The notes under the pieces were generated by a model that was given only the letters and a program-made list of their open reading frames with translations, did no database searches and was not told where the DNA came from. Below are positions 41,978 through 62,987 of a DNA stretch of 64,000 nucleotides, in pieces. A program made the translations under genes and the position numbers. Source of the stretch: Salarchaeum sp. JOR-1 (lineage in GTDB: Archaea; Halobacteriota; Halobacteria; Halobacteriales; Halobacteriaceae); NCBI RefSeq assembly GCF_007833275.1, contig NZ_CP042241.1, positions 1,612,001-1,676,000 of the forward strand, written 5' to 3'. Every line of letters begins with the position of its first letter. Position 1 is the first letter of the stretch.

Positions 41978-42052
41978 GCTCTGTTGGTGTAGTCCGGCCA
42001 ATCATCTTGCCCTCTCACGGCAAGGACCAGGGTTCAAATCCCTGACGGAGCA
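41978..42052 (+). tRNA. tRNA-Glu (anticodon CUC)
   Basis: A 75-nt cloverleaf. The acceptor stem GCTCTGT pairs with ACGGAGC (one G-U), with discriminator A at 42052. The anticodon stem TTGCC/GGCAA encloses the loop C-T-CTC-A-C, so the anticodon is CUC (Glu). The T arm is CAGGG-TTCAAAT-CCCTG. No intron. No CCA is encoded. It is followed after 56 bp by an integrase module, so its 3' part is probably the attachment site. Confidence 0.95.
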
Positions 42053-42073
42053 CTTTCACCCCGCTCCTTTCCT

Positions 42074-42265: not shown

Positions 42266-42291
42266 AACGGGGTGTGGAGGACGACCGATGA
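42109..42291 (+). CDS. Small repeat-bearing protein ahead of integrase
   Basis: A 60-residue frame starting MSNGKHVSDPRIAP. It contains repeats PSGDFTRT, PSGEFTNF and PSGKQ, spaced about 24 residues. Its TGA overlaps the integrase ATG (ATGA at 42288), so it could be the first gene of the integrase operon, for instance an excisionase or regulator. But it lacks HTH features, and the repeats could be DNA sites instead. No family known. Confidence 0.45.
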   Translation: MSNGKHVSDPRIAPAPSGDFTRTTVAISASGNTDLIPTPSGEFTNFNAPSGKQRGVEDDR

Positions 42292-43394
42292 GCGACCTCG
42301 ACGACATCTCGGTCGTCACTGAACCGTCCGCCGAGTACCTCAACAAACGACAGCGCGTTGACTATCGTAACCAGCGCGAGGACTGCCTCGAGTGGCTCCT
42401 CCACTTCGGGAAGAACCCCGACAAAGCCGAGGGCTACGCGTTCACGACGGTCAAGTGTCGTTCCCACCGCATGGACCAGTTCTACCGGTGGGTCTGGGAG
42501 CAAGAAAACGGGTACACCGGCACGCCCACCCGGGACCACGCAGACGCGTATATGCGCCACCTCGCCAAGCAGGACAAGTCCAACGCGCACAAGTCCAACT
42601 CCCGGAAGGCAGTGATGATGCTGTTCAAGTGGCGCCACCACGAGCACGGAACGGACCCCTGGGATCCCGAGTTACAGTTCTCCACGAACGGCGGCACGAC
42701 CAACCCTCGGGACTACCTGACGCTCGAAGAGCGCTCCGCCATCCGCGAGGCCGCGCTCGAGTACGGGAGTCTCCCCGGCTACACGGTCGTCAGTGGCGCC
42801 GAACGCGACAAGTGGCTGGCGTACCTCGCCCAGCGCCTCGAGAAACCCAAGGAAGACATCACCAGAGAAGACTGGGAACAGGCCAACGGCTGGGAAATCC
42901 CGAGCCTCGTCTGGGCGAGCCTCGACGCCGGCCTCCGCCCCATCGAGGTGCAACGCGCAACCACGAACTGGGTCGATATCGACAACGCCGTTCTCCGGAT
43001 TCCGAAAGAGGAGTCCTCGAAGAACACCGACAACTGGATCGTCGGCCTCCAGGACCGGACTGCGGACGTCCTCGACCGGTGGCTCGACCACCGCGACGTC
43101 TGTGACCGCTACGAGGACACGGACAAGCTCTGGCTGACCCAACGCGGCAACGAACACACCTCGCACTCGCTCAAGTACCTCGTGAACAAGCTCTGTGAGA
43201 TCGCGGGCATCGACACCGGCGACCGAAGTATGACCTGGTACTCGATCCGCCACTCCACCGGCACGTACATGACCCGCGAAGAGGACCTCGCCGCCGCACA
43301 GGCGCAGCTCCGTCACAAGAGCCCCGAGACGACGATGAAGTACGACCAGACGCCCGTCGAAGACCGCCGAAACGCGCTGAACCGAATGGAGTAG
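42288..43394 (+). CDS. Tyrosine-type integrase adjoining tRNA-Glu
   Basis: A 368-residue site-specific recombinase. The SAM-like core-binding domain covers residues 20-130 (YRNQREDCLEWLLHFGKNP to KAVMMLFKWRHHEHG). The catalytic domain has Arg I in DAGLRPIEVQRATTNW, WYSIRHSTGTYM with Arg II (the usual first His of HxxR is Tyr), the late His in LRHKSPETTMKY and the Tyr nucleophile after it. Directly downstream of a tRNA gene and on the same strand, it is the likely agent of integration at tRNA-Glu. It is a paralogue of the next gene. Confidence 0.88.
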   Translation: MSDLDDISVVTEPSAEYLNKRQRVDYRNQREDCLEWLLHFGKNPDKAEGYAFTTVKCRSHRMDQFYRWVWEQENGYTGTPTRDHADAYMRHLAKQDKSNAHKSNSRKAVMMLFKWRHHEHGTDPWDPELQFSTNGGTTNPRDYLTLEERSAIREAALEYGSLPGYTVVSGAERDKWLAYLAQRLEKPKEDITREDWEQANGWEIPSLVWASLDAGLRPIEVQRATTNWVDIDNAVLRIPKEESSKNTDNWIVGLQDRTADVLDRWLDHRDVCDRYEDTDKLWLTQRGNEHTSHSLKYLVNKLCEIAGIDTGDRSMTWYSIRHSTGTYMTREEDLAAAQAQLRHKSPETTMKYDQTPVEDRRNALNRME

Positions 43395-43411: not shown

Positions 43412-44677
43412 TCACTCCGCGATCGACCCTGTGTCGCCGTTCAACTCTCTAACCAACTCCAACAGCACGCTCACGTTCCCACTCAGGATCTGGCCAACCT
43501 CACTCTCACTGAGTTCGCCGCTAGCGCGTGCCGCTCCGAGTTCTCGAACGCCACTCACCGACGTCCGCTGCACCTCGCGGACGATCTCGGAGTAGTGATC
43601 GTCCGTCGTGTCGAGATCCCTGTGCCGGAGAACGTCACCCGCCATTTCGAGGCTGTCGTACTCCTTGAGGTACGTTCCTGCCGTCCGCCGGACGCTGTAC
43701 CACGTGATATTGCGGCCGTCCCTATCGATCCCGGCCTCGTCGCATAGCTTCTCCAGGAGGGCGTTCAGTGTTTTCGAGGTGTACCGATTCCCGCGCTCGT
43801 TCAACCAGAGGGCGTCAGTGTCGTCGTACTTCTCGTACTGTTCGCGCTCGTCCAGCCACGTCGCCAACTGTTCCTGCGTCGGCGGCGACAACGAGAGCTC
43901 GGTCGATTCGCGCTGCTTGGACGCTTTCTCCTCCGGAATATCCAGGACGCCCCGTTCGAGGTCGAGCCAATCGACGGTGGCCCGATGAATTTCGATCGGC
44001 GGGAGGGCCAGGTCCTGGGCCGTCATCACGAGCGACGGGATCTTGGCGCCGTTCTCTTCGTGCTCCCAGTCCTCGGGACTCACCCGTGATTTCGGCTTGT
44101 GGAATCGCTGAGCCAAGCGAGCATTGATCTCGTCTCGCTGCTCAGGTGTGGCCTCCTCGTAGTCCGGGAGCTCGTTGAGACGTTTCGCCGCCTCCGTTAA
44201 GCGGCCGAACTCCTCGAGGTCGAAAATGTCCGAGCTGTCATACGAGGACTGGCCGAACGTCTCCTGCGGCTCCCACTCCGCCCATTCGTCAGCGTCGAAC
44301 TCCCGTGCCTTCCAAACGGCGTACTTCTGAAGCGTATTTACGAACTTCCGTTTGCTATTCCCGCCGTACGGCTCGCCGCCCTGCGTTCGAAACTCGTCGT
44401 TCTCCAATAGATCGACGAACGCAGATGCCTGGGCAGGGGTAACCAGAGCGGAATCAAGTTCTAACTCCTGCCAGAGCGCACGATGAATCTGATCCAGCCG
44501 CCACACGTAGTTCGCAGCGACGCTGTCCGACAGACCGTTCCCAGCCTCCGGGTTTTTCCCCTCCTCCTGCATCCACTCGTAGAACAGCTGCCAATCAGCT
44601 GCGATGACGACCCAGAGGTCGTTCTCCAGCACGTTTTTCGTTTTCCGGCTGACCGGGTCCGTTGGGTCAAACGCCAT
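43412..44677 (-). CDS. Tyrosine recombinase paralogue lacking catalytic Arg I
   Basis: A 421-residue protein, clearly homologous to the preceding integrase along its length (WEHEENGAKIPSLV against WEQANGWEIPSLV; ITWYSVRRTAGTYL against MTWYSIRHSTGTYM). At the Arg I position it reads DLALPPIEIHRATVDW: the Arg is Pro (CCG codon). Arg II, the late His (VLRHRDLDTTDDHY) and Tyr remain. An extra C-terminal tail of 60 residues follows. The ATG at 44677 is chosen since GGAGGTG stands 6 nt upstream; one at 44692 lies before this box. It is probably not a normal recombinase; it could regulate or be decaying. Confidence 0.82.
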   Translation of the reverse strand: MAFDPTDPVSRKTKNVLENDLWVVIAADWQLFYEWMQEEGKNPEAGNGLSDSVAANYVWRLDQIHRALWQELELDSALVTPAQASAFVDLLENDEFRTQGGEPYGGNSKRKFVNTLQKYAVWKAREFDADEWAEWEPQETFGQSSYDSSDIFDLEEFGRLTEAAKRLNELPDYEEATPEQRDEINARLAQRFHKPKSRVSPEDWEHEENGAKIPSLVMTAQDLALPPIEIHRATVDWLDLERGVLDIPEEKASKQRESTELSLSPPTQEQLATWLDEREQYEKYDDTDALWLNERGNRYTSKTLNALLEKLCDEAGIDRDGRNITWYSVRRTAGTYLKEYDSLEMAGDVLRHRDLDTTDDHYSEIVREVQRTSVSGVRELGAARASGELSESEVGQILSGNVSVLLELVRELNGDTGSIAE

Positions 44678-45205
44678 ATTCCACACCTCCATTGCTGTCT
44701 ACCGGACGTGTGGCGTGGGTGCCGAAGCTTACTGTGATCATCAGCGCCAGTGTATCGATGGCACAGGGATAAGGGTTAGGTCAAGGGGGTGAACCCACTG
44801 GGGGAGAGCTTTTCCGAACCTCTGAACCGAGCGATATCTGTCGAATTCCATTTCCCTGTAACGGTTGGAATCCCACCTACTGAGTTCGTGAAATGAAAGA
44901 CCGGATGGGACCAATCAATCCGGTCGTATGGCCCCGCTGCATACCAAGAAACGCCCCGAGACAAAGTACAGCGTATGTGGATCAGTCTGAGGCAAATCCA
45001 AAACCACATATAAAAGATGAGGGAAGACCGACTTTGCACTCGAAGCGAGACTGAAATAGCGCCTCAAACGTGTCCAGAGCGAACTCGAGGAACTGCGAGC
45101 ATTGAGTCTGTCGATGTAGACGTTTCCAAGTCGTTCGAAGGGTGTGGGCTTGCACATGACTTTTGCAGGTCAACTCTTTTTACACGGGGTTTCAATCAAT
45201 ATTCC
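44678..45205. other. Low-GC intergenic stretch with hairpin
   Basis: A 528-bp region without a convincing gene. A perfect 7-bp inverted repeat GACCGGA/TCCGGTC with a 13-nt loop lies at 44899-44925. Base composition falls clearly below that of the region before. A TATA-like element at 45176-45182 belongs to the next small gene. No tRNA, IS or CRISPR feature seen. Confidence 0.4.
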
Positions 45206-45856: not shown

Positions 45857-48800
45857 TCACGAGGTGTCGATATAGATCAATAACCCATCGTGATCGTATC
45901 CTTCCGTTTGGAGTGGTCGGAGTCGTGATGGAAGCTCTTCCAGTTCGTTCGTGAGGTCGATCGCACGGCGGTCTGGTTTGACACCAAGGAGTTTCCAATC
46001 ACCCCCGTAGAGGGGGTCCTGATCCGCATCATTTTCGAGGCGGACCTTTCGATACACACTGAGCTGATTGCGCGTTAGATGAATCTTGAATCCGGTTTCA
46101 TCCTCCGGGAGACTCTTCACTTCGTAACGCACCGGTTCGAAGCCAGACGCTGTTTCTTTGAGCCCAATCAAATCATATCCAGCGCCATCCCAGGTTCGAG
46201 AAATATGGAGGCCGCGTTCAAGAACCTCGCTGTCCCGAGTCTCTTCCCACTCACGGAGGGCTGTCTGAAGTGTCTCAACGCTTTTCCCGGAACCCGGAAT
46301 CGCAGAAACGAGTGCATCGGAGACCGTCGCAAAGTCGCCGTTCTCAGCCGCCTGATCGAGATACCTCGCGGTTCTCTCGGTAATCCACGATAGAGCGGCC
46401 TGCTCGGCTTCATCGCCAACTGCCTTGGTTTGCTCCCATTCAGCTTCCAAATCTTCCAACTCAACGATGCCGCTCCCTGTTTCATTCGGGCTTGACTGTT
46501 CTACCTCGGGCCTCGCCAACCCGACCTCATCGGACGTAACGACCTCTTCGACGGGGTCATACCGCGGAGAGAACTCCCGCAACTTTGTCTCAAGCTCATC
46601 TGCGTCCGGGATTTCAGCGCTTGGGATGGACGCCCCAAACGGGTCGCGGCGGAGCCATTCTATCACGGCTACTTTGGGGTCGAAGACGACCCGTTGACAC
46701 GCCGTTTCGCGGACATACTTGTCAAGGTGATTCGCTATCTCGGATTCAGAGATGGCAAGCCCTGTGTGTGCCTCGATGAGGTGCTGGAGATAGGCACATA
46801 GTCGATTCTCCCATGACGAATACCAACCCTCCCAGTCCGCTCGATGATGTTCGACACACGAGAAGTGAGGGCGGAACGGTTCTTGCTCGTCTGTGAGTTC
46901 CAGCCCACGAAGCGTTTCTTCGACATCCTGGTGCGTTACGTCTCCCGGAGCGCTACTCATAGCGATGTCTTCAGGACCAATATGTGAGAGTCGCGTCCAC
47001 GAGTCGCGCAGTTCCAGGCCGAGTGCTCCAAGCGCCTCCCGAATTCGGTCCCGTAACGCTGCATATTCGTCGTCGTCAAGCTGTCGAAGATGACGGTCAT
47101 ACGCCTCGACAAGTGACATCGCATCGTGCTTCTCAAGAATCCGTTCCACGCGGTCAGTCCCGCCTGACTCAAACGCGCCAAGAACATGAGCAAATGACGA
47201 TCCAACCCCTCCGCGATTCTCCTCAAGCAGGAGTTCGACTAGAGGCTCTCCGAATTCGTCGAGCGGTGGCGGTCCTTCTTGCCCTTCCGGAGTGTCGAAG
47301 ATTATCGTCGGTGGGGTATCCTGAAGGAACAGTGCGTGGTTGTAATCGCCTTTGAATTGCGGATCCGAACGTCGTGTCTCGTCACCTAACATAGCCTCAA
47401 ACTCAACCCAAGCATCATCGACATGCCTGATGACACGACTCCGCCAACGGTTCGCAGCCTCCGCTGGATCCACATCGACTTGCGTCGTGGTTTCTGCTAA
47501 CGCGAGCAGATGTGGAACAACTTCCTCGATTTTCGCGTCGAGTGTCTCGACGGCAATCCCATCCTGACTGCCCTGGTGAATAGGATGGACGTGACGCGTA
47601 ATCTCGAACGCGAGGTCGTTGAGTGGGGCATACCCCGTGAGAGTATCCCGCCCGATAATAGCCGTGACAAGGGGAACATCGGGGAAGAACCGACGCATGC
47701 GTTCCCGCTCGACAGTATCAGTGGGGATCCAGACACCGTCACTGTCGGTCCACTTGAGAGGCCTATCAGAGAGTGCTCGCTTGTCTGGAACTCCTTGATA
47801 GACGAGGAGAGGGATATCTAGTTCTTCCTCTTCGGATTCGTGCTCGCGCGCGATCGTGTTGAGCAATCGATCAACAAGCTGCCGGAGTGCCTGCCGTGCC
47901 CTCGGCGTTTCCTCGATGACAGAGAGCATCGGGGCAGTCAATTCGTGCAGTTGTTCAAGCAATCTGAAAGCCGGCTCAGCATTATTCTTGCTCAAACTAT
48001 CCATATCGGTGCCCGGGACGGCACCGAGGGCCGTCAGCAACTCTGACTCGATCGGCGCTTCTTTTGAGAGACTCCACAGCACGGGCGGGAGTTGTCGCTG
48101 CTGTCCCGATACTAACGTCACCTTTGCGGGCGGAATCTGTGTCGGTGGGTCCTCTATAATTACGGGCGGTTCAGCAACCACATCGCCTTCCGAGTCGGTT
48201 CCCCCAACTGGGAACCAGGCATTGTCCCGTAGTTGCGGAATTAACTCCAGTGGACGACGGCCACCGCCTTCGGACGTCTCCATTTCTAGGCGTTCCGCTG
48301 TGATGAGTTCCTCCAACCACTCCCACGCGGCGTCGAGTGACTGTACCCACGCGGTTGGTTCCTCGTCATCGTCCTGTCGCGGTTCCTCTCCGAACTGAAG
48401 AGGGCTCCACTGTGAGCCAGCCGTACTCAACGCCGGCGGCGTCTCCGTCACAATCCCATTGTCGCCCCCTTCGACCAGAGTTAACGGGACCCCGTCTTCC
48501 GGTGGAGCCGGCGTTACGCCGAGAAACAGCAGAAAGTCATCGAGATCAACGTCAGCCGGCGGTGACGGTAATCGATTCGTCGCCACACGATCCAGCGTCA
48601 ACTGCCGGGCGGGTTCCCACTTGCCAGCTGTCGTGGGGAGAAATAGCGTAGCAATAGACCGACCGGCTGTCCGTGCATTCTCACTATATACGTGATTCCG
48701 CAACGCGCGCCATCCTGGACCGTACTCATCAGACTCTGCGGGTGAAACAGTCCCTCCTTGAGAGTCCAGCGCGTACAAATTCATAGCAAACTGAATCAAG

Positions 48801-50800
48801 TCAGACTGCAATTCAGCCGCCTCTTCAGTATCCTCAGCGAGAGGTGAGTATGTCCACGTGTCGAGGTCGTGGGGAAGCTGCCGGAGTTCACGAAGTACTT
48901 CCCAGCGATTGAATTGGCTCGCGCCGAGCGGCTGCGGTGACTCCTCGCTTCTGAATCCGGGCGGGAAATCAAATGAGGTCACCGCGCGATTCGCTTCCCG
49001 AAGCGCACGTGGCAACTCGAGATCCGTCTCCTCAGAGCGCCGTAGAAATAGCCGACGGGTGTGGCGTTCTCCACGCCCGACCGTCGCATCAGCCTCGGAG
49101 CGCTCCGGTAACGGGACTGCCGGCACGTCCTCATCAGGCGGCAGTTCTTTCTGCGCGGTGACAGGAGCGACGCGTCCTCGGTGATCACGGAGTGCATCAC
49201 CCATCGCGGCCGCTGTTGTCCGCCATGTCTTCGTACTGCTAGAGTACTTACAGGCACGGTCGATCCAACCCTTGGACGCCGTCCAAAAATCGCGGTACGT
49301 CTGAACTGGCCACTGTTCCCTAGCGTCGAAGAATGCCGTTGCCAACACTGACCACTGTTGATACCGTTCGACATCTTGTGAGTTGTCACTCAGGAACAAC
49401 AACGACTCAAGATGGTCAACAATTATCTCACCTGCCTCGGACTGGCTGGTAGCTGGATCCAAGAACTGCCACAGATCGGGCCGGGGCGACGTCGGCGACT
49501 CCTCCCCTGAAGCTGTCTGCACCGCTGTGGGTTCAATCCAATCCCATTCGATCACGTCACTCGATACTCCCACGTCTGCGAGAACCTTGTTTAGGTGAAT
49601 TTCGGCAGCCACCTCAAGCAAGGCTTCATTGTACGCCCCGATCGTCTCATCATCAAGTCGCAGGCTCGTACGATCCGTTCGAAGTTGGAAATCACCCTGC
49701 ACATCAATGCCGAACGGACTGCTGATCAGTGTTGGTAGATATCCGTAAACCCGCGATTGTGACGAACCAGAGGACTCCCCCGCATCAAGGGATGGGTCCG
49801 TTGGCCACGCGACGGCAGCACCGGGTGCTGATAATTCGTGTTCCGCCTCTTTGGCGAGTGCTACCAGCGGCTCCGAGTCTGTTTTCCAGTGGCTGATCGA
49901 CAGCGAGTCTTGTCCGGCCTCGGTGTCGTGTTCTGGCCAGGTTCCTTTGGTGAACGACTGCCACGGCGTCTCAAACTGCACGGACAGGTTCTGTCGATCC
50001 TCGAATAACCCGACGAAATTCAAGTGCCCTTGCTGGATCGCCTCAACCGACTCTCGGAGTTCGTCTATCCGTGGTTCTAAAATCGGAACGACGACGACCG
50101 TATTCAAGCCGTGGAGATCCGCAGGGGTTGGCGGCTGCTCAGCATCAAGCGGCAGCGGAAAGTGGAAGCTCGGGCGGCGGTCCTCCTCACCAACCTGAAC
50201 ATCAATGTTGCCCAAGTATGTTTGATGCCCAGCCCGGACTTCTGGGACCTCCAATCTGGTTGTCCAAGTAGCGCGGTCAAGCGGAGAGTGCATCTCGAGT
50301 CCCCACCATCCCGATCGATGGGCGAACTGGCTCCAGACGCGGACGAAGTCACCGAGCCAGAACACTGACCGGAACCCGATTCCCTTGTTCCCGACGCTCT
50401 CCTCCGGCAGCTTATTCGACGTGTGCAGTGAACACAGCGCGTTGAAATCCGGGCGGCGGTCGTCACTCGTTTCAGGAGGGTTTCCGTAATCGTACTCTGG
50501 ATTGACGCGAATTGGCGTCCCGTCATTCCCGACAACGAGCGCATAGTCCGTCGCTTCCCATGCAACCTCCCTGATTTCCACGGTCACCTTCGAATCTGCG
50601 CGATCCAAGGCATTCTGTAAGAGTTCGAAGAGTACTCGACCCGAATACTGGCGCCGAATAGACTCCTCGTTCTGTAGTTGTTGATATGAGACCTCCCCGC
50701 TCGTATCTTCGTAATTCGAGAAGTGGCGCCGAAACACCGACGCAACATCATCCGAATCCGGTACGAACCCCGCCGAATCCGAATACTCAGAGAGATTCAT
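45857..50800 (-). CDS. Giant sacsin-like GHKL ATPase with NO VEIN-type C-terminal domain
   Basis: A 1647-residue protein. N-terminus: a Hsp90/GHKL ATP-binding fold with VLFELLQNALDRAD (N-box, near residue 60), VVGNDGTPI (DGxG-like box) and VGNKGIGFRSVF (ATP-lid glycine motif, near 137). The middle 1300 residues have no known motif. C-terminus: a DUF3883/NO VEIN-like domain from about residue 1510, with AGYDLIGLKE followed by VRYEVKSLPED, which fits a PD-(D/E)xK nuclease pattern (D...ExK). Large proteins of this design occur in microbial genomes near restriction or defence genes. Base use is lower in GC than the core. Action as an ATP-controlled nuclease is inference. Confidence 0.85.
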   Translation of the reverse strand: MNLSEYSDSAGFVPDSDDVASVFRRHFSNYEDTSGEVSYQQLQNEESIRRQYSGRVLFELLQNALDRADSKVTVEIREVAWEATDYALVVGNDGTPIRVNPEYDYGNPPETSDDRRPDFNALCSLHTSNKLPEESVGNKGIGFRSVFWLGDFVRVWSQFAHRSGWWGLEMHSPLDRATWTTRLEVPEVRAGHQTYLGNIDVQVGEEDRRPSFHFPLPLDAEQPPTPADLHGLNTVVVVPILEPRIDELRESVEAIQQGHLNFVGLFEDRQNLSVQFETPWQSFTKGTWPEHDTEAGQDSLSISHWKTDSEPLVALAKEAEHELSAPGAAVAWPTDPSLDAGESSGSSQSRVYGYLPTLISSPFGIDVQGDFQLRTDRTSLRLDDETIGAYNEALLEVAAEIHLNKVLADVGVSSDVIEWDWIEPTAVQTASGEESPTSPRPDLWQFLDPATSQSEAGEIIVDHLESLLFLSDNSQDVERYQQWSVLATAFFDAREQWPVQTYRDFWTASKGWIDRACKYSSSTKTWRTTAAAMGDALRDHRGRVAPVTAQKELPPDEDVPAVPLPERSEADATVGRGERHTRRLFLRRSEETDLELPRALREANRAVTSFDFPPGFRSEESPQPLGASQFNRWEVLRELRQLPHDLDTWTYSPLAEDTEEAAELQSDLIQFAMNLYALDSQGGTVSPAESDEYGPGWRALRNHVYSENARTAGRSIATLFLPTTAGKWEPARQLTLDRVATNRLPSPPADVDLDDFLLFLGVTPAPPEDGVPLTLVEGGDNGIVTETPPALSTAGSQWSPLQFGEEPRQDDDEEPTAWVQSLDAAWEWLEELITAERLEMETSEGGGRRPLELIPQLRDNAWFPVGGTDSEGDVVAEPPVIIEDPPTQIPPAKVTLVSGQQRQLPPVLWSLSKEAPIESELLTALGAVPGTDMDSLSKNNAEPAFRLLEQLHELTAPMLSVIEETPRARQALRQLVDRLLNTIAREHESEEEELDIPLLVYQGVPDKRALSDRPLKWTDSDGVWIPTDTVERERMRRFFPDVPLVTAIIGRDTLTGYAPLNDLAFEITRHVHPIHQGSQDGIAVETLDAKIEEVVPHLLALAETTTQVDVDPAEAANRWRSRVIRHVDDAWVEFEAMLGDETRRSDPQFKGDYNHALFLQDTPPTIIFDTPEGQEGPPPLDEFGEPLVELLLEENRGGVGSSFAHVLGAFESGGTDRVERILEKHDAMSLVEAYDRHLRQLDDDEYAALRDRIREALGALGLELRDSWTRLSHIGPEDIAMSSAPGDVTHQDVEETLRGLELTDEQEPFRPHFSCVEHHRADWEGWYSSWENRLCAYLQHLIEAHTGLAISESEIANHLDKYVRETACQRVVFDPKVAVIEWLRRDPFGASIPSAEIPDADELETKLREFSPRYDPVEEVVTSDEVGLARPEVEQSSPNETGSGIVELEDLEAEWEQTKAVGDEAEQAALSWITERTARYLDQAAENGDFATVSDALVSAIPGSGKSVETLQTALREWEETRDSEVLERGLHISRTWDGAGYDLIGLKETASGFEPVRYEVKSLPEDETGFKIHLTRNQLSVYRKVRLENDADQDPLYGGDWKLLGVKPDRRAIDLTNELEELPSRLRPLQTEGYDHDGLLIYIDTS

Positions 50801-51501: not shown

Positions 51502-52860
51502 TTATGCCTCAGAATCATACTTAGAAATCGTTGTCTGCCGCGAGATATACTCATCTTGATCAACCACCTCGCTGACTAAGTCCGGGAGGTCACCAATTTC
51601 GAGGATGTCGTCGAAGTATTGCCTCCCAAGTTCTCGAATATGCCTCCGGTTCCGCTTAGCGCTAAGGTAATTTTTCTCATCCACTTCTGGCGTTTTCGTT
51701 CCCGCTTCCTCCGACACGAATTTGATTTGCTCTCGGTTCTCCTGAAGCGCCTCCTTGTACAGATTCTTCCAGAGCTGTCGGAAATTCTGGATCGTCGGGA
51801 AACTGCCATCATCAACACGTACACCGGCCTCTTTCGATAGCTCCTCAATCCAGTTATTCAGCGTTGATGGGGTTCGACAGCCACTGTCTGATTGCGGACT
51901 CGGCACCAGCTTCCCGTTCCCACCTATTGCCTCAATATAATCGACGTATGCCTCGAGGAAACTAGCACCCATCATAATCGGAATCTTCTGAGGACCCTCA
52001 TCTAGCCGTAGATTTTTCCGCTCGACGAAATGAACATACGGATCATCCCCAAACTCTAACTGCTCAGTCACGTCAATTCGTTCAATCTCGTTAGACCGAG
52101 GGCCAACCGCCATCATAAATATGAGCAGTACCTTCATCCAAAGCCGCCATTGCTTCAGGTCGTAGCCGCGAACCGGGCACTCCTCAAGTGCGTCCAACGT
52201 GTGCCATAGATCCCTGATTTGTGCTTCAGTAACGGGGGATGGATCGCCTCGGCTCCGGCGAAATTGAAACTCGTCCAAAGCTTCTTCGACCGGATTAATA
52301 TTGATTCGGTACTGGTTTTTCACGATGCGATAGTATCCAGAGAAATATTTTGTGTAGTTCTGCATCGTGCCGTCTGCCGACTGCTCATCCAGATATTGGA
52401 TGATTATCTTCGCAGACTGAATATTTGTTGTTCGTTCTTCTTCGGACTCGTAATGTCCAATCTCCAAAATCTCGATATCTAGATCCTCATTATGAATTGC
52501 TTCATAGACTCTGTTGATTGTCGTCTTAACCGAGTCAATGGTCGAATCTGCGAATCCCAGATTGTTTTCTAAACTCTGTATATAATACTCGAGTGACTGT
52601 ACGGTTTGGTCGTCATCGGTTGGCCACTTCCCATTGGACCGAGCTCCGAATCCCTGATCGCGGAGGAATTCGTGGAGAGTTTGCCCGTAGATCTCTTGGC
52701 ACTTGTTGTTGAGCCCCTCAGCTGAATACCGTGTGTTAGCGGTAATGTACTCCCACGCGGGGAGATGATCACGGGGGAGCCCGTCATGGCGAAGTTGCTC
52801 CCGGAGAATCACAGGGAGCTGTTCTTCGAGTGTCTTCTTATCAATGCGATTTCGACTCAT
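51502..52860 (-). CDS. Divergent tyrosine recombinase-like protein
   Basis: A 452-residue protein of lower GC. Residues 1-80 form a charged helical N-domain (ITANTRYSAEGLNNKCQEIYG). A core-binding domain covers 85-200 (SLEYYIQSLENNLG). The catalytic domain shows Arg I in MMAVGPRSNEIERIDV, Arg II in IQNFRQLWKNLY (the usual His is Asn), and a C-terminal block EKNYLSAKRNRRHIREL that may hold the Tyr nucleophile. It is thus an unusual member of the tyrosine recombinase family. A 51-codon gene lies 10 nt upstream on the same strand. Confidence 0.75.
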   Translation of the reverse strand: MSRNRIDKKTLEEQLPVILREQLRHDGLPRDHLPAWEYITANTRYSAEGLNNKCQEIYGQTLHEFLRDQGFGARSNGKWPTDDDQTVQSLEYYIQSLENNLGFADSTIDSVKTTINRVYEAIHNEDLDIEILEIGHYESEEERTTNIQSAKIIIQYLDEQSADGTMQNYTKYFSGYYRIVKNQYRININPVEEALDEFQFRRSRGDPSPVTEAQIRDLWHTLDALEECPVRGYDLKQWRLWMKVLLIFMMAVGPRSNEIERIDVTEQLEFGDDPYVHFVERKNLRLDEGPQKIPIMMGASFLEAYVDYIEAIGGNGKLVPSPQSDSGCRTPSTLNNWIEELSKEAGVRVDDGSFPTIQNFRQLWKNLYKEALQENREQIKFVSEEAGTKTPEVDEKNYLSAKRNRRHIRELGRQYFDDILEIGDLPDLVSEVVDQDEYISRQTTISKYDSEA

Positions 52861-53743: not shown

Positions 53744-54361
53744 ATGAGTGAATACGCAAATTCCCAAGTTCGTGCGAAAGTGTGGGTGACGCCCGACCAA
53801 GTCGAGTCTCTCCGCTCAGCGTGTTACGCGATGGGAGCCGACTACTTGCAGCAACGCAACGAGGCCATCGTTGCGACGATGTACGATACTGGGCTTCGCG
53901 TCGGCGAGCTCGCCCAACTCGATGTGGAACTTCTTCGAAACACCAACTCAGAACTCTACCTCCCGACGGAGATCCAGAAGGACTACCCAAACGAGAACTC
54001 GCCACCACCCGTCACACTCGAGCTTGCGGAAGACACCGCACGGCTGCTGTCGGCCTACCTCACCAACCGCTGGAAAGACACGCCCGCACTCTTCCCCGCT
54101 CGCTCCTCAGACCGCATCTCCGAGCAGGGCATTCGGATCATGCTCCACAAAATCGCGGACGAAGCAGGCATTCGCCCCTACAAGATCGATGGGAGCAGAG
54201 GCACATCCGACGACGTCACGCCGCACGCGCTCCGTCACGGGGTCGCTTATCGGATGATGAACACCGAAGACGGGAACACGCTCTACGATGTCCGCAATCG
54301 ACTTCGTCACCGGAGTATCCAAACCACCGAACGAATCTACGACCACATGCTGAAGGTGTAA
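53744..54361 (+). CDS. Minimal (catalytic-domain-only) tyrosine recombinase
   Basis: A 205-residue recombinase consisting almost only of the catalytic domain. The complete active site is visible: Arg I in DTGLRVGELAQLD, HALRHGVAYRM with His and Arg II, RLRHRSIQTTERIYDHML with the late His and Tyr nucleophile. The core-binding domain is absent, which recalls archaeal XerA-like or phage-type short integrases. TTTATAAA at 53722 is its TATA box, placed directly after an inverted repeat. It may invert, excise or resolve DNA. Confidence 0.85.
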   Translation: MSEYANSQVRAKVWVTPDQVESLRSACYAMGADYLQQRNEAIVATMYDTGLRVGELAQLDVELLRNTNSELYLPTEIQKDYPNENSPPPVTLELAEDTARLLSAYLTNRWKDTPALFPARSSDRISEQGIRIMLHKIADEAGIRPYKIDGSRGTSDDVTPHALRHGVAYRMMNTEDGNTLYDVRNRLRHRSIQTTERIYDHMLKV

Positions 54362-56029: not shown

Positions 56030-56722
56030 ATGGAAAGCAGATCGAATACTGACGGAGGAAATGGGGCGACGATATCGGTCGATATCCCCGCACAGGACGC
56101 GGACATATTCAAAAGTCAGGCCGTCCACGACATTCTCTCCTTTTTAACTCGCTATCATACCGACGAGTTCTCCATCACCGAACTGACGGACACAGTAGAC
56201 TACTCCCAACCGACCGTCACCAAGGCCGTCGATATCTTAGCCGCCAACGACCTCGTGACCGACCGGCGCGACGGGAACACGCGGCTGGTCCAAATCAACC
56301 CCGAACGGTTATCCCGGCCGGACGATCCGATCCTGCACATCCCGCAGGCCGAATTCCACACACCAGTCCGTACAGCCGTCGATGAATTAGTCGAACAACT
56401 CGACGACATCGTCGGGATTATGCTGTACGGGAGTGTCGCGCGTGGCGACGCTGACCGTCGGAGTGACATTGACCTGTGGGTCCTCGTCGAAGACGACCGG
56501 ATGGCGAATCAGCGAACCGCGAACCGCGTTCGACAAGACCTCGAAGACCAAGAATTCGACACCGGCCGGTACGCATACGAAATCGACGTCGAATCACTGC
56601 CAGCAGTCCCGAGCTACACTGACGAGCTCCGTGACGTACTCGGCGATGGCCTCGTCGTCTACGACTCGGAGAAATTCGAGACCGTCCGAGAGATGGTCTT
56701 CCACGGTGATCTCGATGAGTAG
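56030..56722 (+). CDS. Winged-helix + MNT nucleotidyltransferase
   Basis: A 230-residue two-domain protein. Residues 25-100 form a winged helix (FSITELTDTVDYSQPTVTKAVDILAAN with wing DGNTRLVQIN). Residues 115-220 are a minimal nucleotidyltransferase: MLYGSVARGDADRRSDIDLWVLV carries GSxxRG and the DxD metal site. In MNT-HEPN modules the MNT protein is the antitoxin that AMPylates the HEPN toxin. Fusion to its own DNA-binding domain suggests it also controls its operon. The HEPN-like gene is directly downstream. Confidence 0.87.
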   Translation: MESRSNTDGGNGATISVDIPAQDADIFKSQAVHDILSFLTRYHTDEFSITELTDTVDYSQPTVTKAVDILAANDLVTDRRDGNTRLVQINPERLSRPDDPILHIPQAEFHTPVRTAVDELVEQLDDIVGIMLYGSVARGDADRRSDIDLWVLVEDDRMANQRTANRVRQDLEDQEFDTGRYAYEIDVESLPAVPSYTDELRDVLGDGLVVYDSEKFETVREMVFHGDLDE

Positions 56723-56743: not shown

Positions 56744-57229
56744 GTGGACGCTCTCGCCGCAGCCATCGACGCCTTCAACGAAGAAGGATACGGTGTCCCA
56801 ACGCGCGAAGACGCAATCAATTCCGACGCCGACTGGAAAACCCAGCTGACGAAAGCATGCCGGCTGCTGACGGCGGTCGATACACTCTCCGATCAAGGCT
56901 TCTACACCGCGACAATCGAACTGTGCTTCGGCGCGACCGAACGCTCCGTCGAAGCCTACGCCCTCGCCGAAGGCGGCGACGATCTTGAGGACTTTCACGA
57001 CCACACCACCTGCTACGACCGCGCAACCGCCCTCGGTCTCCTCTTCGAGCCAACGACACGTGACCTCCGGCAACTGTACGACACCAACCGCACAGACAGT
57101 TACTACGGCGGCTGGCGTCCGACAGCACGCCAAGCGGAGACAATGCAGCAACTCGCTCGTAGCGTCCACGAGTACGTCACCGACCAGATCCGGGAAGGCG
57201 GTGTCTGCGTCTGTGACTCTCTGGATTGA
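56744..57229 (+). CDS. HEPN-like protein, start disrupted
   Basis: A 161-residue helical protein: ACRLLTAVDTLSDQGFYTATIELCFGATERSVEAYALAEGG, then FHDHTTCYDRATALGLL and YDTNRTDSYYGG, similar to HEPN proteins that accompany MNT enzymes. The classical RX4-6H RNase motif is changed here to an R..YY form. The GTG at 56744 is the first start in frame, but protein-like codons (DPQAIVDAL) continue upstream to the MNT stop. A coupled ATG at 56715 would join this frame if one base were restored. So the native start may have been lost. Confidence 0.72.
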   Translation: MDALAAAIDAFNEEGYGVPTREDAINSDADWKTQLTKACRLLTAVDTLSDQGFYTATIELCFGATERSVEAYALAEGGDDLEDFHDHTTCYDRATALGLLFEPTTRDLRQLYDTNRTDSYYGGWRPTARQAETMQQLARSVHEYVTDQIREGGVCVCDSLD

Positions 57230-57386: not shown

Positions 57387-58429
57387 ATGCAACACGCGTT
57401 TCGGGTCGGGCAACAATACCGCGACACCGGGAGTTACCGCAACCCGGACGACCAGTTCCTCCGATGGATCCGCGGCCCCCTCGACAGCGGCATCAAGAAC
57501 ACCGGTGGCATCCGTGATCTCAGTGCGGATCGGTCTGAAACCCCGCAGCTCTCGTGCTCGTCTCGAACGATAGCGGCATCTCCCAGCACGACGACCCGTG
57601 GGAGGACACCCTCGCTGTCAACGCCGGGTACATCAGCTACTGGGGCGACGCGAAAGCGGACAACCCCTACGACGAGTCTGCGCAGAATCAGAAGATCAAA
57701 GCCGCCTTCGACAACGCCGCGGCTGGTCGGCGCGAGAACGTCCCGCCGGTTCTCGTCTTCCGCAAACCCGAATCAGGCGTCGTCGAGTTCTGCGGCCTCT
57801 GCGTTCCCGATCACCTTGACGTGCGCGCGTACCGTGCTGAGGACGGGACGCAAGTCCCGAACTACCAGTTCCACTTCTCAATCCTCAACACCAACGCCGT
57901 CCCCGTCACGTGGTTGCACGAGCGCGCTCAGCAGAACGACGACAGCGCGGCACCCGACGTCTGGCAGCAGTGGGTCCAAGCCGGAGAGGTCGCCCAGTGG
58001 CCGACCGGGGAGCCCCTCAACCAGAGCGGTCGGGTGCGCCGGTATGAGACGTCCGAAGTCACTGTGAGCGACGCCTTCCGGGCAGACACGCTCGAACGCT
58101 ACGGTCACGAGTGCGCCCTGACTGGCATTCGAGAAGATGCGTTGCTGGATCTCGCGCACGTCCTCCCCCGGAGTCAGCACCCTGACTTAGCCGAACACCC
58201 GGAGAACGTTCTCGTGTTGAACTCACTGCACCACCGCGCGTTCGACGCCGCGCTGTTCACCATCGACAGCGACTACCGCATCCGAACGAGTCCCTCATTC
58301 GATCCGGCTCATCCCTTCCTCCGCGAAACTATTCTCGACCGGCACGGCGACCAACTCTCGTTCCCACCGACTGTTGAGATTCGGCCATCGTTCCTCGAAG
58401 AACTCAACGCGGGTCTCTCATGGCTCTAA
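57387..58429 (+). pseudogene. HNH endonuclease with one-base frameshift
   Basis: The N-terminal part is MQHAFRVGQQYRDTGSYRNP to ADRSETP in the frame of 57387. The rest, from AALVLVSNDSGISQHDDPW on, is in the frame of 57554. Adding one C in the run at 57541-57544 joins them into about 347 residues. The first 230 residues are an uncharacterised domain (AVNAGYISYWGDAK) that could read modified DNA. The HNH part has GHECALTGI, LDLAHVLPRS, HPENVLVLNSLHHRAFDAALF. Restriction-type nuclease by likeness. The break may be decay, phase variation or a sequencing error. Confidence 0.75.
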
Positions 58430-58557: not shown

Positions 58558-59649
58558 TCAGTTCAGCCGTGAAATCGCCCAGGCTGCTCGTTCGCGCACT
58601 GTCTCGTCTAAGTCGTTCTCTTTCACGTCCTCAAGTTCCTCGATAGGCACGCTCACGTTCGCATTCCCGATCAGCGAGCACACGTTCGCCCGGACTTCCG
58701 GACTCGGATCCTGCAACGCAGCCGCTAACCGATCCTGCTGGGCTCGAATCGCCGCCGGATCTGCCTCCCCTGCTCGCTGAAGTGCGATCGACGCGTTCAC
58801 ACGCGCCTGAATATTGGTGTCGTCCAGCCGCGCAGCGATCCGATCAGCATACTCAATCACGACTGCTGGATGTTCCTGCGCAAGATCGCCGAGCAATCCG
58901 ACCGCATTATTCCGAACGCGTTTCGCGTCAGCGTCCAGTACCGCCACCAGTTCCTCCACAATGGCTTCTGCGGCATCCGGATAGTTCGACGCGATCTTCC
59001 CGAGCGCCGCTAACGCATTCGTCTGCGTCGTCTCATCCTCACTTTGCATCGCCTCGATCAAAGCATCAATCGCCGGAAACACCTCCTCAGGATACGCTTC
59101 CGCGACGCAGGACAGTGCGTACACCGCGTAACTCTGCGTTGCCTCCGTCTCTGCCGTCGCCGCCGCTTCCAAGGCCGGGACGGCGTCGAGGACGTTGGCC
59201 GGGTCCGCCTCCGCGACCTCCATCAAGCAACGCGTCGCGGCAGCCTGGGACATCGAGTCCTGACTCGCATACGCCGCTAGGTCTCCCACGTACTCGTTCA
59301 GCACCGCTGGGTCGTCCGTCGCTGCCTCGTGGAGTACTTGGAGCGCCGCTCGGTCGAGCGCCGACGGCTCGTCAGCCAGTAACGCGACCGTCGCCTCAAC
59401 AGCAACATCGCGGGCGTCGTCCCGGTGCTCTACTGTGGTCATTGCCAAGCGGAGCGCTTCACGGCGATCAACGGTTTCCGTGTCCGCGACCGCGTCAGAC
59501 AGCATCGTCCGAAGTGTGTCCTCATCCACCGACCCGGGGTCGTCTTCGAGCTGTTTTCGAACCGCCGCGAACGCCGCCCCCGTGAGTGGATCCGCGAGAC
59601 GCTCGTACGGAACCGGATGCAACGCCTCTAGTGGTCCGTCAACCGTCAA
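58558..59649 (-). CDS. HEAT-repeat protein
   Basis: A 363-residue all-helical repeat protein. Repeats of about 35-40 residues are seen, such as TQSYAVYALSCVAEAYPEEVFPAI, TQTNALAALGKIASNYPDAAEAI and VRNNAVGLLGDLAQEHPAVVIEY, RVNASIALQRAGEADPAAI and VRANVCSLIGNANVSVP. Such solenoids bind other proteins. No catalytic site. It stands alone on minus between the HNH gene and the permease. Confidence 0.82.
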   Translation of the reverse strand: MTVDGPLEALHPVPYERLADPLTGAAFAAVRKQLEDDPGSVDEDTLRTMLSDAVADTETVDRREALRLAMTTVEHRDDARDVAVEATVALLADEPSALDRAALQVLHEAATDDPAVLNEYVGDLAAYASQDSMSQAAATRCLMEVAEADPANVLDAVPALEAAATAETEATQSYAVYALSCVAEAYPEEVFPAIDALIEAMQSEDETTQTNALAALGKIASNYPDAAEAIVEELVAVLDADAKRVRNNAVGLLGDLAQEHPAVVIEYADRIAARLDDTNIQARVNASIALQRAGEADPAAIRAQQDRLAAALQDPSPEVRANVCSLIGNANVSVPIEELEDVKENDLDETVRERAAWAISRLN

Positions 59650-61410: not shown

Positions 61411-62082
61411 TCACCGTTGACGGAGTACTAGTTCCGGGAGCCGAACGGAGAAGCGCTCATCGCCTCCCGCGGTTTCGAACCAGAACGCCGGCGGCCCCTT
61501 CAACGGCGTCATCGACGGCCGGTCCGGCTCGAAATGCGTGACCAGATGCGTCTTCTGTTCTCCGTTCGTTCGGTGCGTGAGTTCGAACACATACCCGTCA
61601 GCAAGAGCGTCTCGAACTGCATCACCCGATTCAAACCCACCATCCGGACTCAGGTCACTCGAGGACGGCGGCGACAACCCGACCTCTCCCCGCCGAACGT
61701 GCTCAACGAAATCCCAGGCGTGGTAGTGTTCCCAGCCATCGACGTGCCCTAAATCGAGATCGTCGATGACGATATGGCCCTCGGCGTCCGGGAACAACTC
61801 ACCGAGAATCTGGAGCCGCTCCTCGCGTTCCGGCCACCACTCGTAGTACCCGGACTCGTCTTGCTCACCCAGCGCGTCGATATGTCCGTCACGCCGCCGA
61901 ATCGACTCCACCGTGCCCGGGATGTCTGCTTCGTCAACGAGGTCCTGATTCCCAATCGCCCAGACTTCGTGACCAGTCTCGTGTGCCCAGTACCGCACCC
62001 ACTCAAGCGGCACCGCGTCCCGACGCGGGTGCGGATTCACGTCCACCGTCCAGTCCCGGTCGAACGCCAACACGTACATCAC
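61411..62082 (-). CDS. HAD-superfamily phosphatase-like protein
   Basis: A 223-residue protein. Near the N-terminus AFDRDWTVDVNP has the DxDxT nucleophile motif of HAD phosphatases, and AIGNQDLV and IVIDDLDLGHVDGW fit the second strand and the acidic metal motif. A C-terminal 70-residue extension (DGYVFELTHRTNGEQ) follows. The ATG at 62082 overlaps the stop of the ADP-ribosylglycohydrolase as ATGA, so the two are coupled. Substrate unknown, perhaps a product of the partner. Confidence 0.75.
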   Translation of the reverse strand: MMYVLAFDRDWTVDVNPHPRRDAVPLEWVRYWAHETGHEVWAIGNQDLVDEADIPGTVESIRRRDGHIDALGEQDESGYYEWWPEREERLQILGELFPDAEGHIVIDDLDLGHVDGWEHYHAWDFVEHVRRGEVGLSPPSSSDLSPDGGFESGDAVRDALADGYVFELTHRTNGEQKTHLVTHFEPDRPSMTPLKGPPAFWFETAGGDERFSVRLPELVLRQR

Positions 62083-62987
62083 GCCACCTCCACGAGTTGC
62101 TCAGCCAGCGTTTCGAGCTCGTCGGCTTCACCAATAGTACGCAACCATCGATCAGGAAGGGAAGACGCTCCGAACCGCGCGCCAGCCACCGCGCCCGCGA
62201 TCGCACCAATCGTATCGGTATCACCACCGCGATTCACCGCCGTCACAATCGCCTCCTCGAGGCTGTCACAGCCGAGTCCGTCGTGGAGTGCTGTCTGGAG
62301 CGAGTGCACGACATAGCCCGATGTCTCCAACGAACCAGGAGTGTCCCCTTGAGCGAGCGGCCTGAGCGCAGCCACGAGTTCGTCCGGTGCACTCGCGTCG
62401 ACGTAGTCCAGGGCATCCCGCAATGGCGTACTTGTGCCTTCCAGGAGACCAGCCACTGTGAGGTTCAGAATCGCGCAGCCATAGGTACACCGCGGATCAG
62501 CATGGGTGATTTGTGAGGACTGGCGGCTCACTTCGACAAGGTGCTCCCAGTCGGTCGCGTATGGGATAGCGAGCGGTGGGCACCGCATCACGCTGCCGTT
62601 CCCGGCGTTCTGTCCTTCTCGACTCTGTTCCCACACGTGTTGGCCTGCCTCGTCCCAGGTGTCGCCGTGTTTGAGGCGACTGAGCGTCCGCATCGTCATC
62701 CGCCCGATGTCGAACGGGTCACTCTCGTACCACGCCACGAACCGCTCGGCGACATCCGCTGGGTCAAACCCCTGGTGTTCGACGAGGCTTCGCGCGATAC
62801 ACAGCGCCTGCTCGGTGTCGTCCGTGATCGTTCCAGCGGGCTGATTCCACGTGCCGTGCCCGACCATCTCGTCAAGACGGCCGTACTCTGCGCTGATCTC
62901 CGACGCCGCGGCGAACTCAACCGGTCGCCCAAGCGCATCCCCACACGCAAGCCCCAACAACACCCCGCGAGCGTTGTCTCCATCCAT
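62079..62987 (-). CDS. ADP-ribosylglycohydrolase-family protein
   Basis: A 302-residue all-helical hydrolase that removes ADP-ribose from proteins or small molecules. The two-Mg site is visible: GLACGDALGRPVEFA (N-term), ITDDTEQALCIA near residue 54, and VNRGGDTDTIGAIAGAVAGARFG near residue 250. NAGNGSVMRCPPLA is also typical (DraG/ARH class). Coupled to a HAD phosphatase-like gene by a 4-nt overlap. Confidence 0.93.
   Translation of the reverse strand: MDGDNARGVLLGLACGDALGRPVEFAAASEISAEYGRLDEMVGHGTWNQPAGTITDDTEQALCIARSLVEHQGFDPADVAERFVAWYESDPFDIGRMTMRTLSRLKHGDTWDEAGQHVWEQSREGQNAGNGSVMRCPPLAIPYATDWEHLVEVSRQSSQITHADPRCTYGCAILNLTVAGLLEGTSTPLRDALDYVDASAPDELVAALRPLAQGDTPGSLETSGYVVHSLQTALHDGLGCDSLEEAIVTAVNRGGDTDTIGAIAGAVAGARFGASSLPDRWLRTIGEADELETLAEQLVEVA

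Follow-up and report, generated by a model that had tools for sequence, protein, structure and literature searches.

In plants, NO VEIN is a developmental gene with the same architecture as the Tiamat-like protein described here. Tiamat (TmtA) itself is said to have been presented by Millman et al. in 2022 as a single-gene defence system. Its mechanism is given as unknown in surveys of 2023 and 2026 (PMC10482375, PMC12926258), and it was reported in 20 of 382 complete archaeal genomes and also in Halococcus (PMC13321033, which cites Millman 2022). Plant DNA has been flagged as Tiamat in metagenomes, where plant sequences are caught by the Tiamat models (PMC12409356). In R-M operons, DUF3883 is joined to SNF2 helicases, and it was described there in 2013 as a novel REase domain (PMC3710099). 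A search of the literature for sacsin in an anti-phage context found nothing on point. We looked at a TmtA-like gene in a 64-kb stretch of haloarchaeal DNA, which as a whole is called the window below. In our judgement its product is probably a haloarchaeal Tiamat (TmtA)-like member, that is, a protein encoded by a single gene on a mobile element, directed against viruses or invaders and working as an ATP-gated nuclease. The family is already catalogued (Tiamat/TmtA) with its mechanism unexplained, and this is not a new kind of system. The earlier note on this DNA had spoken of a little-described system, which holds for the mechanism but not for the family, since Tiamat/TmtA is catalogued and DUF3883 was already called a REase domain in 2013.

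The gene is located at 45857-50800 on the minus strand and encodes a Tiamat-like (TmtA) protein of 1647 aa, combining a GHKL ATPase with a NO VEIN/PD-(D/E)XK-like domain according to a TmtA profile match and its motifs. The ORF starts with an ATG, and a Shine-Dalgarno-like GGAGG is present 4 bases upstream. An ORF of 1647 residues had been announced earlier with no strand given; a reading on the plus strand was ruled out, the frame being full of stops. Together with the window protein, eight full-length haloarchaeal relatives (about 40-57% identity) cover a length range of 1633-1686 aa, so that the gene is intact and both its ends look right. The Halorubrum/Haloarcula versions (L025, L026) are 56-57% identical to the window protein. 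For residue conservation, we aligned 22 homologues from haloarchaea and bacteria, the latter mostly Pseudomonadota and Myxococcota, with identities of 21-57%. In this alignment 71 residues are invariant, and they cluster around the GHKL motifs and around GxxAE/D/ExK: 44 of them fall in residues 1-400, 15 in the middle and 12 in residues 1449-1647.

The relation to Tiamat was defined against the PADLOC-DB models and their core members. The TmtA model PDLC03971 matched residues 16-1376 with E=3.8e-97 and 324 bits, and seven other TmtA models matched too. By comparison, the bacterial core proteins of PDLC03971 (Streptomyces/Paraburkholderia-type) match it over their full length with E=0 and about 1730 bits. 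These core proteins have a SACS ... NOV_C architecture (L050, L086), with both domains exceeding the Pfam cut-offs in L050, and this sacsin-type ATPase plus NOV_C architecture was found here as well, the ATPase through NCBIfam P_loop_sacsin (48.2 bits) and NOV_C through homologues only. In a tree of the ATPase part, the haloarchaeal group that includes the window protein is nested next to bacterial groups, and a branch with 100/98 support separated the haloarchaeal clade and its proteobacterial kin from the PDLC03971 core. We therefore speak of a Tiamat-like protein and not of a Tiamat, because of this split and of the difference between 324 and about 1730 bits. Judged from these sequences, the function of the clade may have diverged from that of the core. 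To our knowledge, no experiment has been reported on any member of this clade. Going further, the haloarchaeal/proteobacterial clade could be a defence family with a function of its own. Its members would be ATP-switched restriction factors that work alone: an Hsp90/MORC-like clamp, acting through a sensor of about 1000 residues with a new fold, would license a PD-(D/E)XK nuclease without a modification partner. We put this forward tentatively, as a rather unlikely possibility. If true, it would explain how Tiamat works in general and would supply plant NO VEIN with a counterpart in prokaryotes.

At the N-terminus, residues 16-410 (49571-50755, minus strand) form an Hsp90/MORC/sacsin-type GHKL ATPase with a transducer-like part, as seen with P_loop_sacsin, Foldseek and the invariant residues. 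GHKL/Hsp90 motifs had been noticed there from the sequence, and the 22-homologue alignment confirmed them. The N-box RVLFELLQNALDRA (residues 55-68; 50597-50638, minus strand), with E59 and N63 as its ExxxN, the DG motif N92-D93-G94 and the glycine lid SVGNKGIGFRSVF (residues 135-147; 50360-50398, minus strand) are mostly invariant across the 22 homologues, the N-terminal invariants including E59, N63, D66, N92-D93-G94, G137-K139-G140-G142 in the lid, D370 and R377. By analogy with Hsp90, E59 is predicted to be the catalytic residue and N63 to bind Mg. When the whole protein was compared with Pfam, SACS was found at E=0.083 and almost nothing else, and P_loop_sacsin gave E=1.1e-12, its score being just below the cut-off of 50. 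An AlphaFold model of residues 1-1000 (mean pLDDT 72.5) matched SMCHD1, Hsp90, TRAP1, GyrB and MORC2 in Foldseek with E values from 8e-7 to 6e-5. The ExxxN N-box, the DG motif, the glycine lid and, in the predicted model, the Bergerat fold that mark GHKL proteins are all present.

The C-terminus, residues 1449-1647 (45860-46456, minus strand), is a divergent NO VEIN/DUF3883 domain with a predicted PD-(D/E)XK nuclease-like fold of alpha-beta-beta-beta-alpha-beta order, on the basis of motifs, model and hhalign. The D...ExK pattern reported earlier was recovered as GxxAE (residues 1462-1466; 46403-46417, minus strand), which would bring the first acidic residue of the PD-(D/E)XK site, the motif II aspartate D1543 in GxD (46172-46174, minus strand) and the ExK motif E1560-V-K1562 (46115-46123, minus strand). 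The four predicted catalytic residues E1466, D1543, E1560 and K1562 are invariant in 22 of 22 homologues, down to about 21% identity, and belong to the 12 C-terminal invariants (G1462, A1465, E1466, L1531, H1532, G1541, D1543, V1557, E1560, K1562, W1602 and L1604). An AlphaFold model of residues 700-1647 (mean pLDDT 72.5, pTM 0.47) showed a helix at 1448-1486, strands at 1544-1550, 1553-1563 and 1570-1576, a helix at 1577-1588 and a strand at 1601-1607. GxxAE1466 is then found in helix 1, D1543 at strand 1 and E1560-x-K1562 in strand 2, which is the order of the PD-(D/E)XK core; with the invariant motif residues, this makes the predicted fold nuclease-like. The assignment to DUF3883 stood through the homologues but not through the window protein itself, which does not reach the gathering score of Pfam NOV_C (PF13020): among the 22 homologous C-termini, 8 gave a NOV_C match (best 7.8e-6), and hhalign of the homologue C-termini with the NOV_C-bearing C-termini of core TmtA proteins aligned the D...ExK...N-E stretch (E=1.1e-6, probability 91). 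Foldseek of the C-terminal model gave weak, non-significant matches to MspJI, SwaI and EcoRV (E 1-5) and to phage PD-(D/E)XK or VRR-NUC proteins (E 0.4-4), and a sequence search of the PDB with the C-terminal profile gave nothing significant. The nuclease assignment is thus based on motif invariance, predicted topology and homology to DUF3883, and not on a fold match.

Such an architecture could also belong to a sacsin- or NO VEIN-like Hsp90-family ATPase whose C-terminus binds nucleic acid without cutting it, acting in protein quality control or regulation. The likeness of the N-terminus to Hsp90 and sacsin is in keeping with this, as are the plant sequences caught by the Tiamat models (PMC12409356). 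A dead C-terminal domain is nevertheless unexpected, since its four predicted catalytic residues are kept by homologues that diverged to about 21% identity, and a housekeeping chaperone is disfavoured by the patchy distribution and the island context of the gene, both presented below. Altogether, we regard a chaperone or regulator as distinctly unlikely. The plant DNA flagged as Tiamat is presumably NO VEIN itself, a reading based on the architecture of NO VEIN.

Between the GHKL and transducer-like part, which reaches to about residue 410, and the nuclease-like domain, which begins at about 1450, lies a middle region (residues 411-1448; 46457-49570, minus strand) with 15 scattered invariant residues and with no match to a family or fold. 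In Pfam and in Foldseek against the PDB and viral models, no known family or fold was found for it. A motif-free stretch of 1300 residues had been claimed here; it exists but is slightly shorter, at about 1040 residues. An AlphaFold check of the middle part had also been proposed, and the model of residues 700-1647 gave no Foldseek match below E=0.15. It did align over long stretches with STAT and anthrax lethal factor (E 0.15-1), but with rmsd values of 14-29 A and probabilities of at most 0.16 these matches were dismissed as chance. Since no domain can be recognised in the middle and few of its residues are invariant, the sensing of invaders by this part is a pure inference.

The TmtA-like gene belongs to an element of 89.9 kb inserted in tRNA-Glu (G000:C2 1654011-1743970) and lies at one end of it. 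The left end of the element is in the window, from 42011, and the rest extends beyond the window end. The integration site is tRNA-Glu(CTC) at 41978-42053 on the plus strand. Its 3' half forms a 44-base att repeat (42011-42054), an exact copy of which is found 89.9 kb away at G000:C2 1743927-1743970. No intact tRNA was found at this distal copy, and there is no second att copy inside the 64-kb window. Between the repeats the GC content is 0.48-0.62, mostly 0.53-0.62, compared with about 0.67-0.71, or roughly 0.68, outside. In a genome of the same genus (G025), the tRNA-Glu locus is present and the element absent, but this comparison is only partly informative, as the sequence past the tRNA is also unlike the 8 kb beyond attR here. 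The recombinases claimed as neighbours were confirmed as three tyrosine recombinases: one at 42288-43394 on the plus strand, about 235 bases from tRNA-Glu (Phage_integrase 1.1e-14), which is likely the integrase of the element, a second at 43412-44692 on the minus strand (Phage_integrase 1.9e-11), and another, found with Pfam, at 53744-54361 on the plus strand. Upstream of the TmtA-like gene, at 51502-52860, is a divergent recombinase-like protein of 452 aa, relatives of which are located near the TmtA-like gene on a Halorussus plasmid (L022) and, upstream of ParA, in L033. As for the TA modules claimed, a wHTH-nucleotidyltransferase was found at 56030-56722 on the plus strand, but it scores below the NCBIfam MntA cut-off (36.8 against 60) and its neighbour at 56744-57229 has no Pfam match. 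The HNH nuclease is an AspBHI_N-HNH protein, a predicted modification-dependent restriction endonuclease (57554-58429, plus strand; PF18062 1.5e-31, PF13391 3.6e-11). The element also carries genes for a HEAT-repeat protein (window 58558-59649), a relative of which lies close to the L034 homologue, and for an ADP-ribosylglycohydrolase (62079-62987).

Beyond the window, the element encodes all six type 1 BREX-like proteins, BrxA, BrxB, BrxC, PglX, PglZ and BrxL (L107:7011-13938 and L108:2632-7634; G000:C2 about 1683010-1697634), and a PDC-S02-like gene sits between BrxC and PglX. A 3266-aa ORF of helicase-REase type (L109:2109-11906; G000:C2 1711109-1720906) contains a ResIII helicase, homing-endonuclease-associated HNH repeats, DUF4011, an AAA_11/12 helicase, REase_MTES_1575 and a PH-like domain, and resembles two restriction-type helicases joined in a single polypeptide. 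It is followed (L109:12021-16731) by an EVE-AAA protein and a 456-aa partner without a Pfam match, in a McrBC-like layout; a homologous pair (69-71% identity) flanks the TmtA-like gene in L025, L029 and L030. The region L110:508-10959 encodes a Piwi-domain protein (616 aa), a PLD protein and then a cassette of 686-aa, 301-aa and 1151-aa (UvrD-like) proteins, which is about 80% identical to a cassette beside the homologue in L025, L029 and L030 and, for its first two genes, in L026.

To see whether the gene keeps constant company, the survey of genes beside homologues that had been suggested was run. The distribution is patchy: a full-length relative was found in 8 of 391 other genomes in the order-level sample, and none in the 25 other genomes of the same family. 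Relatives are plasmid-borne in Halorussus, in Natronosalvus and in the bacterium Candidatus Thiodictyon syntrophicum (33% identity, 99% coverage), and plasmid homologues lie near ParA/Orc1 genes. A chromosomal homologue (L034) adjoins PglX (E=0), and other neighbours are a DrmD/BrxHII-type helicase (L032), a PD-Lambda-4_A-like protein (L027), a GajB-like helicase (L025), a TIR protein (L023) and DUF262 (L022). We call these neighbourhoods defence-rich as a reading of the matches and not as an enrichment statistic, the PADLOC and neighbour names being annotations. The neighbours thus change from one homologue to the next, and the setting is a plasmid or a defence island and not a stable housekeeping context. 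A constant operon partner was rejected, as only the TmtA-like gene itself recurs across 13 neighbourhoods (12 homologous and the window). This lack of a partner favours an enzyme that works alone and is activated by a trigger over a restriction pair protected by methylation.

It also bears on a role as an accessory of restriction, in which the protein would act with the BREX or the modification-dependent enzymes of the island, for example by degrading what they stall, instead of standing alone. The BREX genes in the same element, the PglX beside the L034 homologue and the AspBHI_N-HNH gene 7 kb away would all suit such a role, but no neighbour recurs and no BREX gene was found among the annotated plasmid neighbourhoods of homologues, so we hold it to be very unlikely. 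Somewhat less remote, yet still unlikely, is a weapon between elements: with its biochemistry unchanged, the protein would exclude competing plasmids or integrative elements in a Wadjet-like role, and any antiviral effect would be secondary. Its gene is on an element itself and on plasmids near ParA/Orc1, and a search of 50,697 phage records gave no homologue, a result that also led us to reject a phage origin; however, classical antiviral systems (BREX, Piwi) abound on the element and the chromosomal homologue lies beside PglX.

These comparisons demonstrate, at the level of sequence, the domain architecture, the conservation of the putative catalytic residues, the mobile defence-island context and the lack of a constant partner. 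An ATP-gated antiviral nuclease effector, as the earlier note had proposed, is the best-supported reading because the homologues lie outside a housekeeping context and the C-terminus is nuclease-like, and as a prediction the mechanism of an ATP-gated nuclease has good support. In this mechanism, the GHKL module would bind ATP and close its lid, probably dimerising as in Hsp90, MORC and MutL. The long middle, directly or via a bound ligand, would recognise foreign nucleic acid or some sign that the cell is infected. Once ATP is bound or hydrolysed, this would release or position the C-terminal PD-(D/E)XK domain, which would cut nucleic acid with E1466, D1543, E1560 and K1562, and the invader would be destroyed or the infection aborted. 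With 22 aligned homologues having invariant ATPase and nuclease residues, and with tractable haloarchaea among the homologue genera, whether Tiamat is an ATP-gated nuclease becomes answerable by a few point mutants. The value of the window gene is that of a well-conserved, testable archaeal Tiamat-like branch on a mobile defence island, the 89.9-kb element being a tRNA-integrated vehicle that brings BREX, Piwi, restriction enzymes and the Tiamat-like gene together in a haloarchaeon.

Compared with known systems, the window protein is closest to Tiamat as defined in PADLOC-DB, with which it shares a sacsin-type ATPase, a long middle, a NO VEIN C-terminus and an occurrence as a single gene in defence islands. 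It differs in that the best matched stretch omits its C-terminal 270 residues, that it and its haloarchaeal relatives (1633-1686 aa) are shorter than the 1782 positions of the model, and that a 100/98 branch sets its clade apart from the model core, its antiviral role being predicted from sequence. With the GHKL ATPases Hsp90, MORC, SMCHD1 and sacsin, it has in common the ExxxN N-box, the DG motif, the glycine lid and the Foldseek similarity (E 8e-7 to 6e-5), but it is about 10% identical to them and is fused to a long middle without a match and to a nuclease-like C-terminus. The NO VEIN C-terminal domain DUF3883 (PF13020) has GxD, ExK and LSxNE-type motifs like those of the window protein, which is too divergent for Pfam and in which a longer insert separates the GxxAE helix from the D strand. 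Finally, the DUF3883-SNF2 proteins (PMC3710099) have the same type of C-terminal domain, also a predicted nuclease, joined there to a helicase and here to a GHKL ATPase.
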